DNA from: Spiroplasma endosymbiont of Asaphidion curtum
Lineage (GTDB): Bacteria; Bacillota_I; Bacilli_A; Mycoplasmatales; Nriv7
Direction of reading: 5' to 3'
Length of the DNA stretch: 64,000 bases
Assembly (NCBI RefSeq): GCF_964031085.1
Contig: NZ_OZ035001.1
Span: forward strand, 868,001 to 932,000
The notes under the pieces are model-generated. The model had not been told where the DNA came from. It did no database searches and worked only from the letters and a program-made list of their open reading frames with translations. The position numbers were made by a program, and so were the translations under genes. Shown here one piece after another: positions 15,503-32,306 of this stretch; within the stretch, counting starts at the first letter, position 1; each line of letters begins with the position of its first letter.

Positions 15503-17495
15503 AGACTTGGTACATAACCTTTAATTTTATCTACTATTTTGATAATATTATTTCCTAGGTGAAGTACAAATGTTAGATAAATACAAAGACGAAAATGAAT
15601 TTTATAGTCTAATAGGCATAAAATATAAAACTTTCATGAAAATGGTAGAAATTTTAAAAGAAGCTGAAGCTAAACAAAAACAAATTGGTGGTAGACCAAA
15701 TAAATTATCAATAGAGCAAAGATTACTTATGACTTTAGAATATTGAAAAGAATATAGTACATATCGTATTATTGCAAAAAAATATAATATTAGTCATGTT
15801 AGTTGTATTCGTAATATCTTTTGAGTTGAAAATATTCTAATAAAAAATAGTCACTTTCATATACCTGGCAAAAAGATATTATTGGAAAATAAGGGTACTA
15901 ATAATAATTTATTAGCAATTGATGCTACAGAAATTCCAATTGAAAGAATTAAAAAAAACTAAAATTATTATTTTCTGGTAAGAAAAGGCAACATTCATTA
16001 AAATCGCAAATAATTATTGATTTATTTAACAATAAAATTATTTCAGTAGATTTTTGTTATGGCAGTATTCATGATTATAAGTTATTTTTAAAATCAAATA
16101 CACTTATAAATCCAAAATTAGAATTAATTGCTGATTCAGGATATCAAGGTTTGCAAAATGTTCATAAAAATACATTAGACTTCTTGCATTACTTATTTAT
16201 TAAACAAAATTCCTATAAAATATATTTAAAATAGAAATTATAAGGAATTTAAGATTATGAAATTTGATAAATTTAATTTTATTAATGATAAAGAATTATT
16301 ACGATTAACTGGAATAAAGCAAAGTACTTTTAATAAAATGTTAAATATTTTAAAAGAAGCTGAGTTAAAAAAGTTTAAAAGAGGTGGTAAAAATAATAAA
16401 TTATCATTAGAAAATAGATTATTGATGACTTTATCATATTGACGAGAATATCGTACTTATTTTCATCTTGGTAAAAGTTTTGATATTAGTGAAGCTAGTT
16501 GTTATCGAAATATCAAGTGAATTGAAGATATTTTAATCAAACATCCTGATTTTCAACAACTTGCTGGTAAAAAAGCATTAATAAATGATTATTTTAATGA
16601 TAAAACAATTATTATTGATGCTACAGAAACACCCATTCAACGCCCAAAAAAAGACAAAAACAATCTTATTCAGGAAAAAAGAAAAAACACACTATTAAAA
16701 CACAAGTAATTATTGAAAAAGAAAGCAAAATAATTATTGCAACAAATTTTTCTCTCGGTAAAAAGCATGATTTTTGTTTATTTAAAGAATCAAAAATCCC
16801 AATTTTAAAAAATACTAAATTAATAGTTGATAATGGTTATCAAGGAATACAAAAAATTCATAGTAATGTTCTAATACCTAAGAAAAAAACAAAGAAAAAC
16901 CCTTTAAATAAAGAACAAAAACATAATAATAAATTAATTTCAAAAATGAGAATTATTATTGAAAATATTTTTGCTATTCTTAAAAAATTTAAAATTATTA
17001 CTGAAAAATATCGTAATCGTAGAAAACGATTTAGTTTAAGATTTAATTTAATTGCTTCAATTTATAATTTGCAATTATAGATAACATAAAATATTTATTT
17101 AAAATTAAATTTAAATAATAAAATAATTTTTTGTTGTGTCAAAATTTACACATTTAATAAAATCCATAAGTATTAACCTAATAAAAGTTAGAAATTACTA
17201 TATAGTATTTTTTATTTACAAATAATTTGTAATTATTTTAATAAGTAATGCAAGAAGTCTATTATTGCCAATTAAAAAGAGTAAAAATAATCCTTTAAAT
17301 CCAGATAAAAAGGAATATAATAGCTTTTTAAGTAAAGTTAGAATTGCCATTGAACATGTTTTTGCTAGATTAAAAAGATTTAAAATACTAGTTTATCGTT
17401 ATCGCAATAAGATTAGAAGATTTGGATTACGATTTAACTTAATTTCAGGAATATATAATTTTGAATTAAGCTAGTTATAGTTATGTACCAAGTCT
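15503..17495 (+). mobile_element. IS5-B, interrupted by IS5-A
   Basis: IS5-B is about 905 bp with ends AGACTTGGTACATAAC and GTTATGTACCAAGTCT. Frame A (15570-15962) starts MLDKYKDENEFYSLIG, with the HTH-like part GGRPNKLSIEQRLL, and ends after LLAIDATEIPIERIKKN. A -1 slip on the A8 run at 15951-15958 would continue into the second frame (LLFSGKKRQHSLK, GSIHDYKLF, ADSGYQGLQ) with the remaining acidic residues of the DDE site. The IS5-A insertion at 16177 breaks the second frame. Sequence resumes at LLPIKKSKNNPLN and ends at 17474. Confidence 0.88.
16177..17260 (+). mobile_element. IS5-A, full length, inside IS5-B
   Basis: 1084 bp. The first frame (16257-16709) carries IDATETPIQRPKKDK. Slipping -1 on the A7 run at 16646-16652 continues as RQKQSYSGKKKKHTIK, then NFSLGKKHDFCLF, VDNGYQGIQ and MRIIIENIFAIL to the stop at 17080. 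The two frames together form one DDE transposase of about 274 residues, as in IS5-family groups with programmed frameshifting. The flanks share ATT, and an uninterrupted IS5-B at 32307 confirms the ancestral junction. Confidence 0.92.
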
Positions 17496-20253: not shown

Positions 20254-21335
20254 GCCAAATTGTAAAGTTAAGTGCAACTAAATTATTTTTCTAACCAAAT
20301 ATTCGATTGGTGAAAGATAATTTAGTATTTTTCTTGGTCTTTGGTTTAAAGACAATATAAATTTATGAACTGCATTTTTAGTAGTATTTGAAAAATTAAA
20401 TTTTTTAGGAAATTTTTCTCTAATTAAACCATTAGTATTTTCATTAGTACCTCTTTGTCAAGGCGAATACGCATTAGCAAAATAAATTTTCACATTTAAA
20501 TTTTTTTCAAGTTGTTGTCAATTAGAAAATTCTTTACCCCTATCAAATGTTATAGTCTTAACAAGATTATTTGGAAGAATTGATAAATAATGGCTAATGT
20601 TTTCGTTAACAACTTTAGTAGTTCTATTTTCAACTAACATTGCTAAAGTAAATCTTGATGTTCTTTCAACTAAAGTTATTAAACATGATTTACTTTTACC
20701 TCGTGATGATACTACAGTATCACCTTCTCAATGACCAACAGTTATACGATTATTAACATTAATATTTCGTTCTTTAATTGATTTACCATTAAATTTACCG
20801 CGATTTTCTTGAGATTTTCGTTTCTTACCTTTTCTTCTTAAATTTTTATTAGTAACTTTTTCAAGTAATCCAGAATAAATTCAATTGTAAATTGTTTTAA
20901 AACTAATAATTCATTCTTTATGAAAATTTTTAATTCTGCCATAAATTTGTTCAGGCGATCAACCTAATAGTAATTTTTGTTGTACATATTTTACTAATTC
21001 TCTATTTTTAAACTTATGAAAATAAACATGTGATTGTTTTCTGTTTTCTGCTTTATTTTGTGCAATTAATGAAAAATAATGATTACTATCTTTATTTCTA
21101 TTGACTTCTCGAATAATAGTACTAATACTTCGATTAAGATTTTTAGCTATTTCACTAATTTTTACTTTAAACTTCAATTGATTCTCAATATAAATTCTTT
21201 CATATATGCCAAGATGTTTGTAACCCATATAAAAACTCCTTGCTTTGTTTTTTCTAAAATAAACTTAGCATCATGAAATTTTTATATGAGATTTTTTGCA
21301 ATTTTATTTACTTGTACTTACAAGTATAATTCAGC
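20254..21335 (-). mobile_element. IS30-family element, full length
   Basis: 1082 bp, transposase 21228 to 20278, apparently intact. It lies in inverse orientation to the truncated IS30 at 19683, giving a long inverted repeat. The right flank AACTTAAAT does not duplicate the left flank. The promoter of the next gene begins 30-50 bases beyond it. Confidence 0.9.
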
Positions 21336-22219: not shown

Positions 22220-22762
22220 CTAATTTCTAAAATCAAAATTATTAGGAGCAGAACCTTTTCGTGATTGTGGTAAACTATCAATTCACTTCATATGTTCATC
22301 ACTAATTTTAAAATCATCAATCGCACTATTTTCAATAATCCGCGTCTTATGCATTGACTTTGGAATTATTAAACTTTGATGTTGATAAGCTCATCGTAAA
22401 AATAATTGTTGAATTGTTTTATTATATTCATGAGCAATCTGTTCACAACTTTCTGGTAAAAAATCATGATATTTCATTGTCCCTCAACCAATAGTTACAA
22501 TATTATTTTTTTGATGATATGCTCTTAATTCCGTTTGATTTAATCCTGGATGAAACTCAATTTGATTAGCAACTGGTAACTCTTTAGCATCTTGTTTTAA
22601 CTGTTCTAAATGTTCAATAGACTTCTTGCATTACTTATTAAAATAATTACAAATTATTTGTAAATAAAAAATACTATATAGTAATTTCTAACTTTTATTA
22701 GGTTAATACTTATGGATTTTATTAAATGTGTAAATTTTGACACAACAAAAAATTATTTTATT

Positions 22763-24767: not shown

Positions 24768-25849
24768 GCTGAATTATACTTGTAAGTGCAAGTAAATAAA
24801 ATTGCAAAAAATCTCATATAAAAATTTCATGATGCTAAGTTTATTTTAGAAAAAACAAAGCAAGGAGTTTTTATATGGGTTACAAACATCTTGGCATATA
24901 TGAAAGAATTTATATTGAGAATCAATTGAAGTTTAAAGTAAAAATTAGTGAAATAGCTAAAAATCTTAATCGAAGTATTAGTACTATTATTCGAGAAGTC
25001 AATAGAAATAAAGATAGTAATCATTATTTTTCATTAATTGCACAAAATAAAGCAGAAAACAGAAAACAATCACATGTTTATTTTCATAAGTTTAAAAATA
25101 GAGAATTAGTAAAATATGTACAACAAAAATTACTATTAGGTTGATCGCCTGAACAAATTTATGGCAGAATTAAAAATTTTCATAAAGAATGAATTATTAG
25201 TTTTAAAACAATTTACAATTGAATTTATTCTGGATTACTTGAAAAAGTTACTAATAAAAATTTAAGAAGAAAAGGTAAGAAACGAAAATCTCAAGAAAAT
25301 CGCGGTAAATTTAATGGTAAATCAATTAAAGAACGAAATATTAATGTTAATAATCGTATAACTGTTGGTCATTGAGAAGGTGATACTGTAGTATCATCAC
25401 GAGGTAAAAGTAAATCATGTTTAATAACTTTAGTTGAAAGAACATCAAGATTTACTTTAGCAATGTTAGTTGAAAATAGAACTACTAAAGTTGTTAACGA
25501 AAACATTAGCCATTATTTATCAATTCTTCCAAATAATCTTGTTAAGACTATAACATTTGATAGGGGTAAAGAATTTTCTAATTGACAACAACTTGAAAAA
25601 AATTTAAATGTGAAAATTTATTTTGCTAATGCGTATTCGCCTTGACAAAGAGGTACTAATGAAAATACTAATGGTTTAATTAGAGAAAAATTTCCTAAAA
25701 AATTTAATTTTTCAAATACTACTAAAAATGCAGTTCATAAATTTATATTGTCTTTAAACCAAAGACCAAGAAAAATACTAAATTATCTTTCACCAATCGA
25801 ATATTTGGTTAGAAAAATAATTTAGTTGCACTTAACTTTACAATTTGGC
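24768..25849 (+). mobile_element. IS30-family element, full length
   Basis: 1082 bp with transposase 24875-25825, apparently intact. The target duplication is TAAT, 22 bases from the end of the outer IS5-A. Confidence 0.92.
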
Positions 25850-27623: not shown

Positions 27624-28652
27624 TTAAATAAATGATAATAAAATATCATCTAAATTTTCTCATTTATCTTGATCACAAAAAAGAAAATTATTTTTAATAT
27701 TTAGCTTCTTTTTTGTAATCAGTTTATTAATCTCATTTTTAAAATATTTATAAGCTACTTTATTTTGCTTTGCTCTCAAATTAACGCCTTCAAGTAGTCC
27801 TAATCCCATAATAAAAATTTGTGCATAATATTCCTGTTTTGTAATTTTAGTAATTGTTTGTCGCCATAATGGATATTCATTAGTATTTTGGAAGATAACT
27901 ATTTGTGAATTTTTATGAAAAGAACTAGAACCCATACCAACACCTAAATAATTCTGTAAAGTTCAATAACTATATTGATGTTGTGATTTAATGCCTTTAT
28001 TAGTAATAAAATTATTTTTTTCATATGGTAAATAACCATTTTCTTTTAAAATATTTTTCAATCATTGATATGTAATTACAACACAATTATTATCATCTTC
28101 ATAATAACTAATATGATCAACAGGTAATTTTCTTAAAATATTTAAATCATTTTGAATAACACATTTAGAATATCCTTTTAAATTAAAAAATAAATCAATT
28201 GCTTGATTTTTAAAACCATTAGTTAATGCTTTATTAATTTGATTAGCATAATTAATATTATCACAATAATTTTTTTGTAAAAATACAGCCCTACTAAATG
28301 AAATTACTTTTCATATTAAACGATTAACACCATAACTATTTCATAACAAAAATAATTCATCAGTATCATTACAATGTAATTCTAAATTATATTCAATAAT
28401 ATTACTTGCTAATGGTTGTAATATGTTTAAAATTCGCTTTCATTGTTCAAAATCAAGGTCACGAGAACAATTAACAGCAATATATACTGTTTGTAACTGT
28501 TGTAAATTTTCTTGCTCACGAATTATTTCTTGTTCAATATTATCAATAATAATATTGAAATCTTGTTTAACAATTAATTTTTGATTAATAGTTTGCAATT
28601 GATAATTTCTATCATTTTTAATAAAAAGATTTACAAATAAATGAAAATACAT
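27624..28652 (-). CDS. HemW-like protein lacking radical-SAM motifs
   Basis: 342 residues in one open frame. The middle and C-terminal parts follow HemW: SYGVNRLIWKVISFSR, GFKNQAIDLFFNLKGYS, LPVDHISYYE and YLGVGMGSSSF. HemW is a radical-SAM heme chaperone related to coproporphyrinogen dehydrogenase. The [4Fe-4S] motif CxxxCxxC should be near residue 10, but here the N terminus reads MYFHLFVNLFIKNDRNY with no cysteine, and the SAM-binding GGGTP is replaced by VNCSR. The ATG lies one base after the stop of the membrane-protein gene. Either a retained non-catalytic homologue or an early pseudogene. Confidence 0.7.
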
Positions 28653-28653
28653 T

Positions 28654-29892
28654 TTAACTTGAAGTAACCTTAATTTTTTTTCTTCGTAATAATCAAATCG
28701 GAATCGCAATAACAAAAAATATAATCGCAATAATTGTTAATCAAATTCATAAACAGCGACGATTTATTGCTCGCTTTAATTCATACATTTCATATGGATT
28801 AATAATTTCATAACCATAAAAACCAATAATATTAGCTTTTCTTTTACGAACAAAAATAATATTTAATACTTGTAAAAAAAACAAGGCAAATAATATTCCT
28901 GTTAAAATAATAATTTCTGTTGTTAAATCTCTAATCGTCATATCTAAAATTAAAAAACCAAAAATTTTTGGTTGGATTGCTCCTGATAATCCATAAAGAA
29001 TAGCAATGACCATAGCACCAATAATATACAAAGGAAAAGCTACTCAATTAATAATAATACTACGAATATGCATTTTTCGATAATTAGCGATAATAAAATT
29101 AGGAATAACATTATTTCCTAATTTAGCTTTTTTTAAATATCCTTCCACTTCTTTTTTAATTTTAATTCAATCAAACAAAGAAATAAAAAATAAACCTAAT
29201 GACACAATACATAACGGTATCATTAAAGTTGGATGAGGAATTAAATTTTCATTGTCAATAACAATATTTTGGTGCTTTAAAAATCATAAAATTAATGGTA
29301 TTGAAGAAGAGATTATTCCTAAAAAACCAATAATCATTGTTAAAACCAAACGATATTTTTCACTACGAACCTCATTAGCAATTTCCTTAGGAATAGTTTT
29401 TAAACTTAACGAACGATAAGATAATTCTTGTGCTTCTGGTTCATTATAAGATAAATATGGTTCTTGATATGATTTTTGATATAATGTTGGACTATAATCA
29501 TTATGATTATCTTCTAAAAAATCATTAGGTGATGAATCTAAGATTGGTTGTTGTGGATATTGATAAGAGGTTATTGTTGTCGCATTTTGTTGGTATGGTT
29601 TGCCACCAAATTCACGACTATAATCATTTTTAGGGGTATAAATTCTTGCTTTTGGTAAATTATAATTTTCTTCATAATATGATGTTGACTCTTTAATACC
29701 AGAATTAAAATATTTTTTATCATCAACTGTAAATTCATAACGATTAATTACTCGGGGAATATCACTTTGCTTTTGTTTTCTTTCATAAGGAAAATATGGA
29801 TCAAGTTGCTCTGCCTTTAATTTATTATCATTAAGTCGCTTTTGTTCTACTTTATTAAAAAACTTATCCCTTATTTTTTCTTTTCATGACAT
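28654..29892 (-). CDS. Multi-pass membrane protein with long cytoplasmic N terminus
   Basis: 412 residues. The first 140 are hydrophilic and rich in Tyr, Pro and Gln. Membrane helices follow: LVLTMIIGFLGIISSSIPLI, LMIPLCIVSLGLFFISLF, a further pair around FPLYIIGAMVIAILYGLSG and IIILTGILFALFFLQV, and a last one near LTIIAIIFFVIAIPIW. It resembles the poorly known membrane proteins common in Mollicutes; I cannot name a function. It is followed directly by the HemW-like gene and preceded by a small membrane protein, all on the minus strand and probably co-transcribed. Confidence 0.65.
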
Positions 29893-30175: not shown

Positions 30176-30589
30176 AATAATTACCTTCTTTTATTATCTT
30201 TAAATTACATAATAATTATATCGTAATCATTACATTTTTTAAATAATTAATAATTTTATCCAAAATGATTTATATATAATTTTTAATATGATAATTGAAT
30301 TTTTCAACTTGTGATTTACTATTTGCAATTGTATAAACTAATGTTCCATCTCTTCCTGTTCAAGAAAAATCACAACCAACAGTTTTTAAATTAGTTATTA
30401 CTTCTGCTGTTGGATAAATATGTTTTTCATTACCAACATATTTTATTCCATAAGTTCTAGGATCAACACCTGAAGCAAAGCAAGTTTTAGGTTTAATTTT
30501 ATTTAAAAATGACAATGAACTTGATGTTTTACTACCATGATAGGGTACTTGTAAAAAATTAACTTCTGGAAGTAAATTCTTTTTTAATT

Positions 30590-31671
30590 GCTGAATTATA
30601 CTTGTAAGTGCAATTAAATAAAATTGCAAAAAATCTCATATAAAAATTTCATGATGCTAAGTTTATTTTAGAAAAAACAAAGCAAGGAGTTTTTATATGG
30701 GTTACAAACATCTTGGCATATATGAAAGAATTTATATTGAGAATCAATTGAAGTTTAAAGTAAAAATTAGTGAAATAGCTAAAAATCTTAATCGAAGTAT
30801 TAGTACTATTATTCGAGAAGTCAATAGAAATAAAGATAGTAATCATTATTTTTCATTAATTGCACAAAATAAAGCAGAAAACAGAAAACAATCACATGTT
30901 TATTTTCATAAGTTTAAAAATAGAGAATTAGTAAAATATGTACAACAAAAATTACTATTAGGTTGATCGCCTGAACAAATTTATGGCAGAATTAAAAATT
31001 TTCATAAAGAATGAATTATTAGTTTTAAAACAATTTACAATTGAATTTATTCTGGATTACTTGAAAAAGTTACTAATAAAAATTTAAGAAGAAAAGGTAA
31101 GAAACGAAAATCTCAAGAAAATCGCGGTAAATTTAATGGTAAATCAATTAAAGAACGAAATATTAATGTTAATAATCGTATAACTGTTGGTCATTGAGAA
31201 GGTGATACTGTAGTATCATCACGAGGTAAAAGTAAATCATGTTTAATAACTTTAGTTGAAAGAACATCAAGATTTACTTTAGCAATGTTAGTTGAAAATA
31301 GAACTACTAAAGTTGTTAACGAAAACATTAGCCATTATTTATCAATTCTTCCAAATAATCTTGTTAAGACTATAACATTTGATAGGGGTAAAGAATTTTC
31401 TAATTGACAACAACTTGAAAAAAATTTAAATGTGAAAATTTATTTTGCTAATGCGTATTCGCCTTGACAAAGAGGTACTAATGAAAATACTAATGGTTTA
31501 ATTAGAGAAAAATTTCCTAAAAAATTTAATTTTTCAAATACTACTAAAAATGCAGTTCATAAATTTATATTGTCTTTAAACCAAAGACCAAGAAAAATAC
31601 TAAATTATCTTTCACCAATCGAATATTTGGTTAGAAAAATAATTTAGTTGCACTTAACTTTACAATTTGGC
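30590..31671 (+). mobile_element. IS30-family element in the MBL gene
   Basis: 1082 bp, transposase 30697-31647, no internal stop. The flanks share ATT. One base in the left end differs from other copies (GTGCAATTAAAT for GTGCAAGTAAAT). Confidence 0.92.
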
Positions 31672-32306
31672 ATTAATTCTTGTTCTACTTTCTTTTCGGT
31701 ATCGCCTGTTAATAAAAACCGATGATTTTGATAAGCAAAAGATAACACTAAACTTTGATTATTTTCATCATTAATTGCATCTTTATTAATAAAATCATAA
31801 ATTTTATAAGTTAAATTATCAAATGATAAACCTAATGCCTTATAATTTGGTTTAATATCTTGAGGACTAATACCTAAATCTGCTCATTGTTGTGGTCATT
31901 TTTTACTTGTTTTATCCTGATAGCGTTCAAAAAATGAATGACTACCATAAATATTTTTAACAGTAAAGTTACTAACAATCGTTTCTAAATTACTTGTATG
32001 GTCATGGTCACTATGATCGTGAGAAATAAAGATTGCATCTAATTGATTAATTCCTAGTTCCTTTAAATAATTAGCAACAAAATTACTTTTTGCATATTCA
32101 TCTTTTCATCAATCTCTAGGATTACCACCAATACCAGTATCAAACATTACTGCTCGATTTTTATATTGCGAATTAGTTATAATCGTTGATAAACCATTAC
32201 CAACTGCTAACATATGATATTGCAATTGTGGATTATTAAGTAAAAAATCACTAATTTTACTACAAGATACTACTAAAAAAATATTACTAATTACTAAACT
32301 AACTTT

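Follow-up and report, generated by a model that had tools for sequence, protein, structure and literature searches.

What becomes of a HemW that has lost the cysteines holding its [4Fe-4S] cluster? This question is raised by a gene in the 64,000-nucleotide stretch analyzed here (the window, to which all positions refer), from the Spiroplasma endosymbiont of Asaphidion curtum (NZ_OZ035001.1). The gene lies at 27624..28652 on the minus strand and, under translation table 4, encodes 342 amino acids followed by a stop, with six TGA codons read as Trp and an ATG at 28652. The original prediction had described an open frame of 342 residues, giving no strand, and had recognized a HemW relative without CxxxCxxC and GGGTP; the frame exists, and the missing motifs were confirmed by alignment with canonical HemW. 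The gene is the sole copy in the 1.31 Mb genome, in which a search for a second, canonical HemW found none. Directly upstream, at 28654..29892 (minus strand), lies a gene for an MSC_0882 family membrane protein (NF045846, E 2e-49), and the ATG of the HemW-like gene stands one base past its TAA. The same one-base spacing recurs in three genomes of the window's family (G001, G003, and G004), and the N terminus is probably genuine, as had been proposed.

The neighboring region of the window carries a 316-aa IS30-type transposase in three apparently identical copies, at 20281-21228 (minus), 24875-25825 (plus), and 30697-31647 (plus), near which a 150-aa fragment of a transposase (MKFDKFNFIND...) also occurs several times. 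The IS30-type copy at 30697-31647 apparently splits a metallo-beta-lactamase-fold gene (ComEC-like by eye) into portions at 30270-30629 and 31644-32225, both on the minus strand; its homologue in G003 is a single 278-aa frame (L055:10958-11791). An aldo/keto reductase fragment is located at 22223-22477 (minus); the full 277-aa frame is present in G003 (L055:7217-8047), and the gene is split in G001 and G002.

The kinship of the protein was examined by profile comparison. When eight cysteine-less proteins were compared with ten canonical ones using hhalign, 332 columns aligned with an E-value of 2e-59, and the window protein proved homologous to canonical Spiroplasma HemW along its whole length. 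NCBIfam HemW/HemN models match residues ~21-326 (E 5e-24 and 2e-21) under their curated cut-offs; the score against TIGR00539 (HemW) is 76 bits versus a curated cut-off of 205. No Pfam family matched the window protein, the radical SAM superfamily PF04055 included, and copies from a second family (f5) reached at most 21.7 bits with PF04055 versus a gathering score of 29.5. A phmmer search of the PDB with the single window protein returned chance matches only. MSC_0882 lies directly upstream of the cysteine-less gene in the window's family (f1) and of canonical HemW in sister Spiroplasma (genomes of f6); in f5, pepV lies downstream of the cysteine-less gene, as it does next to canonical HemW in G060, and MSC_0882 is located elsewhere. 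Sequence and gene order together mark the gene as HemW by descent, a counterpart inherited vertically.

Set beside HemW as known from Escherichia coli and Lactococcus lactis (TIGR00539), the cysteine-less form shares the full-length alignment, the gene neighborhood, and the C-terminal region, and f1 copies have the His, Tyr, and Trp of the HemW signature HNxxYW; however, it lacks CxxxCxxC, GGGTP, and RxSxGxQ, misses roughly 10-17 residues after HIS-Y, and falls below every curated HemW cut-off. The barrel core also aligns with HemN, the oxygen-independent coproporphyrinogen III oxidase (PDB 1olt; profile E 1e-8), but without its cluster and SAM-site motifs. A precedent for such a change is PsgB (TIGR04419), a HemN-related protein catalogued as a non-iron pseudo-SAM protein. 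Membership in PsgB was rejected, as only three of the eight cysteine-less copies match the model, the best with 61 bits versus a cut-off of 300. Canonical Spiroplasma HemW fits TIGR04419 better than the cysteine-less copies do (E 2e-22 versus 1e-16); therefore, the latter have no specific kinship with PsgB.

The changes are concentrated at the active site. Residues 12-19 (KNDRNYQL; 28596..28619, minus) align to the [4Fe-4S] motif CxxxCxxC, and all three cluster cysteines are replaced, by K12, N16, and L19; the length of this loop is kept in f1, whereas the loop is deleted in f5. Without cluster ligands, radical-SAM enzymes cannot cleave SAM reductively. The SAM-site motif GGGTP corresponds to AVNCS at residues 59-63 (28464..28478, minus), and NRLSIGVQTF corresponds to NRLIWKVISF at residues 110-119 (28296..28325, minus), so that RxSxGxQ has given way to RLIWKVI. 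W114-K115 is invariant in the cysteine-less copies, is found also in broken copies that cover the site, and is absent from the canonical HemWs compared. In the alignment to HemN 1olt, A59 takes the position of G111 and K115 that of G170, and another residue stands in place of Q172; G112, G113, and Q172 are SAM contacts in HemN. At seven positions (A59, W114, K115, Y183, N234, S244, and W331), the eight intact copies all have the same residue, one that is rare in canonical HemW, and these residues persist despite an overall identity of ~30% across the f1/f5 split. A deletion after HISY is likewise common to both families. Residues 225-230 (HQYSYW; 27963..27980, minus) align to HNxxYW, the heme-binding signature of HemW (PMC10320005); H225, Y229, and W230 are kept in f1, and f5 retains mainly the Tyr, the His being mostly lost.

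All genomes of f1 (five) and f5 (nine) were searched, and the cysteine-less form or its remains was found in 14 of 14. Within f1, the protein is full-length in G001 (87% identity) and in G003, and the gene is broken in G002 and G004; in f5, all nine genomes carry the protein or its remains, with ~30% identity to the window protein. Elsewhere in the order, outside the window's genus, 58 of 67 HemW loci keep CxxxCxxC, and the nine without it all belong to f5. (PMC10232968 has the Spiroplasma endosymbiont of Nebria riversi under "unplaced.") A one-off loss is thus contradicted, and the search for close relatives with the full motif, which would have spoken against the original prediction, gave the opposite: no close relative has it. 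Of the 14 genomes, 6 have a gene that is disrupted or shortened at its N terminus, with a stop and a frameshift in G002, a frameshift and a transposon split in G004, one stop in G045, frameshifts in G050, and about the first 30 codons gone in G008 and G055; decay therefore does occur, independently and later. G002 contains a duplication with 7.7-kb spacing, in which two broken HemW-like copies (L056:7880-8816 and 15549-16485) have identical lesions; the damage therefore probably preceded the duplication.

How selection has acted since the cysteines were lost was measured with a GY94-type codon model, all measured branches postdating the loss. For the cysteine-less gene, omega was 0.166 in the f1 trio (p 4e-11 against 1) and 0.12 in a trio from f5 genus g15 (p 9e-32), values that indicate purifying selection and answer the dN/dS check proposed earlier. 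Canonical HemW gave 0.024 (G060/G081). The cysteine-less values are well above this, so the constraint is relaxed. Other genes in the window's genus yielded 0.150 (the adjacent MSC_0882, a value near that of the cysteine-less gene), 0.103 (valS), 0.120 (leuS), and 0.054 (rpoB), with G004 used in place of G003 for valS and leuS. NG86 estimates of dN/dS in f1 (0.30-0.52) exceed the codon-model value, probably because NG86 ignores codon bias in an AT-rich genome, and both lie below 1. Regional NG86 values, based on small counts, suggest that residues 201-270, which include HQYSYW, are the most constrained and residues 121-200 among the least.

On this evidence, the gene probably encodes an old, clade-wide, non-catalytic HemW pseudoenzyme that has retained a binding or chaperone-like job, is kept by selection in most of the genomes, and is now being lost piecemeal. 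Under a competing explanation, HemW became useless once radical-SAM chemistry was abandoned, and the intact frames are survivors of a slowly decaying, non-functional relic that have not yet been hit. The independent lesions in G002, G004, G045, and G050, the N-terminal loss in G008/G055, the relaxed omega relative to canonical HemW, and the strong divergence of the f5 copies among themselves are what such a relic would leave. However, omega remains at 0.12-0.17 (p 4e-11 or lower) on branches that all follow the loss, and a neutral frame with an equal synonymous rate would be expected, on a model basis, to have accumulated ~28 stops over the f1 trio. Invariant residues common to both sides of the ~30% identity split also argue against it, and we regard this explanation as rather unlikely. 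The original prediction had offered a new role or very recent decay: a non-catalytic role is plausible, but very recent decay is not supported, given a cysteine-less state common to the 14 genomes of two families, with codon evolution since the loss far from neutral.

The wider genomic setting bears on the cause of the change. In the 14 f1 and f5 genomes, a PF04055 search found nothing above the cut-off; the sole signals, in G026 and G031, were sub-threshold and came from the cysteine-less HemW. The search was validated by matches in 14 of 14 control genomes, and most sister Spiroplasma, in genera g13, g16, g25, and g35, show three to five matches per genome. A third group, genus g6 of f6 (G009, G016, and G032), has neither a radical-SAM match nor a HemW match; in it, HemW has gone altogether. 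Loss of SAM synthesis as the cause was rejected, metK (SAM synthetase) being present in all genomes tested, f1 and f5 included. Loss of sulfur supply is not supported either: every genome tested has SufU, and the copies in G000, G003, and G040 have CxD and the two further Cys positions. Because the radical-SAM matches are gone but metK and SufU remain, radical-SAM chemistry appears to have been abandoned, with SAM synthesis and SufU kept. It is conceivable, though somewhat short of an even chance, that this whole lineage is free of radical-SAM enzymes and that selection maintains its HemW as a pseudoenzyme whose pocket has been rebuilt (W114-K115) and whose function at no time depended on the cluster.

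A question of history arises inside the pseudoenzyme explanation. The two families might each have dropped the cluster along with the full set of radical-SAM genes and arrived at identical replacements by convergence. The rpoB tree joins f1 to f6, whose HemW is canonical (support 99/98), and the rpoB+rpoC tree also prefers f1+f6, with f1+f5 rejected (AU p 0.023); a valS+leuS+rpoB tree gives f1+f6 with 95.7/92, yet f1+f5 is not rejected (AU 0.117). The MSC_0882-HemW adjacency in f1 and f6, missing from f5, and the cluster-loop length, kept by f1 and deleted by f5, point the same way. By contrast, the cysteine-less forms group together in the HemW gene tree, where f1+f6 is rejected (AU p 2e-4; p 0.05 without the active-site columns), and f1 and f5 have the same W-K replacement, A59, and deletion after HISY. 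That both families have the W-K replacement and the deletion speaks for a single event (or a transfer). Long branches affect both the HemW tree and the marker trees. Two separate losses seem somewhat doubtful; the gene tree and shared residues would favor one conversion, and the marker trees lean to two.

An error in sequencing, or a frameshift that arose recently and affects this assembly alone, is hardly credible as the reason for the missing motif. It was suggested by an off-frame peptide, ICKSFY, taken earlier as a hint of compensated indels in the cluster motif; another frame does yield the peptide, but it is directly followed by a stop, and when the codons were shuffled, a Cys appeared in an off-frame within codons 1-51 in 93% of the shuffles, so ICKSFY carries no weight, the supposed cysteine remnant is at chance level, and relatives had already refuted the reading, the same state occurring in the independent assemblies G001 and G003 and in the whole of f5.

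Part of the favored pseudoenzyme reading is established by the sequences: the three cluster cysteines, the SAM-site residues of GGGTP and RxSxGxQ, and the stretch after HIS-Y were lost in genomes from which all other detectable radical-SAM proteins have also gone, and purifying selection continued afterward on a protein that has its own set of invariant residues. The rest is proposed. The barrel and the C-terminal domain would still fold, and the emptied SAM/cluster pocket may have been filled or rebuilt around W114-K115; structure prediction with the window protein and L002 was uninformative (pLDDT 36, pTM 0.24). A non-catalytic function of HemW, the binding of a ligand or client protein without radical chemistry, may have been kept, which would be dispensable enough for several lineages to have since broken the gene. 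According to PMC10320005, citing Haskamp 2018, the HemW cluster is dispensable for heme binding and needed for heme transfer; a cluster-free HemW could thus, on that account, keep a binding role. The His-Tyr-Trp of HNxxYW in f1 would allow heme or another planar ligand. The f5 copies have mostly lost this His, so heme binding cannot be what the protein does in general; the function common to f1 and f5 may instead be protein binding. Mollicutes as a rule are not known to make heme or to have cytochromes.

PsgB and other non-iron relatives of HemN are already on record; the added interest here is that the same genomes are without any other detectable radical-SAM protein. Among the papers searched, none dealt with Spiroplasma, radical SAM, and HemW together. 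Annotation pipelines may misname such proteins coproporphyrinogen oxidase or radical-SAM HemW, for which radical chemistry is impossible. If the pseudoenzyme reading is true, one clade would offer a HemW that outlived its own cofactor, with intact, truncated, and broken copies available for comparison, and thus a natural experiment separating the binding role of HemW from radical-SAM chemistry.
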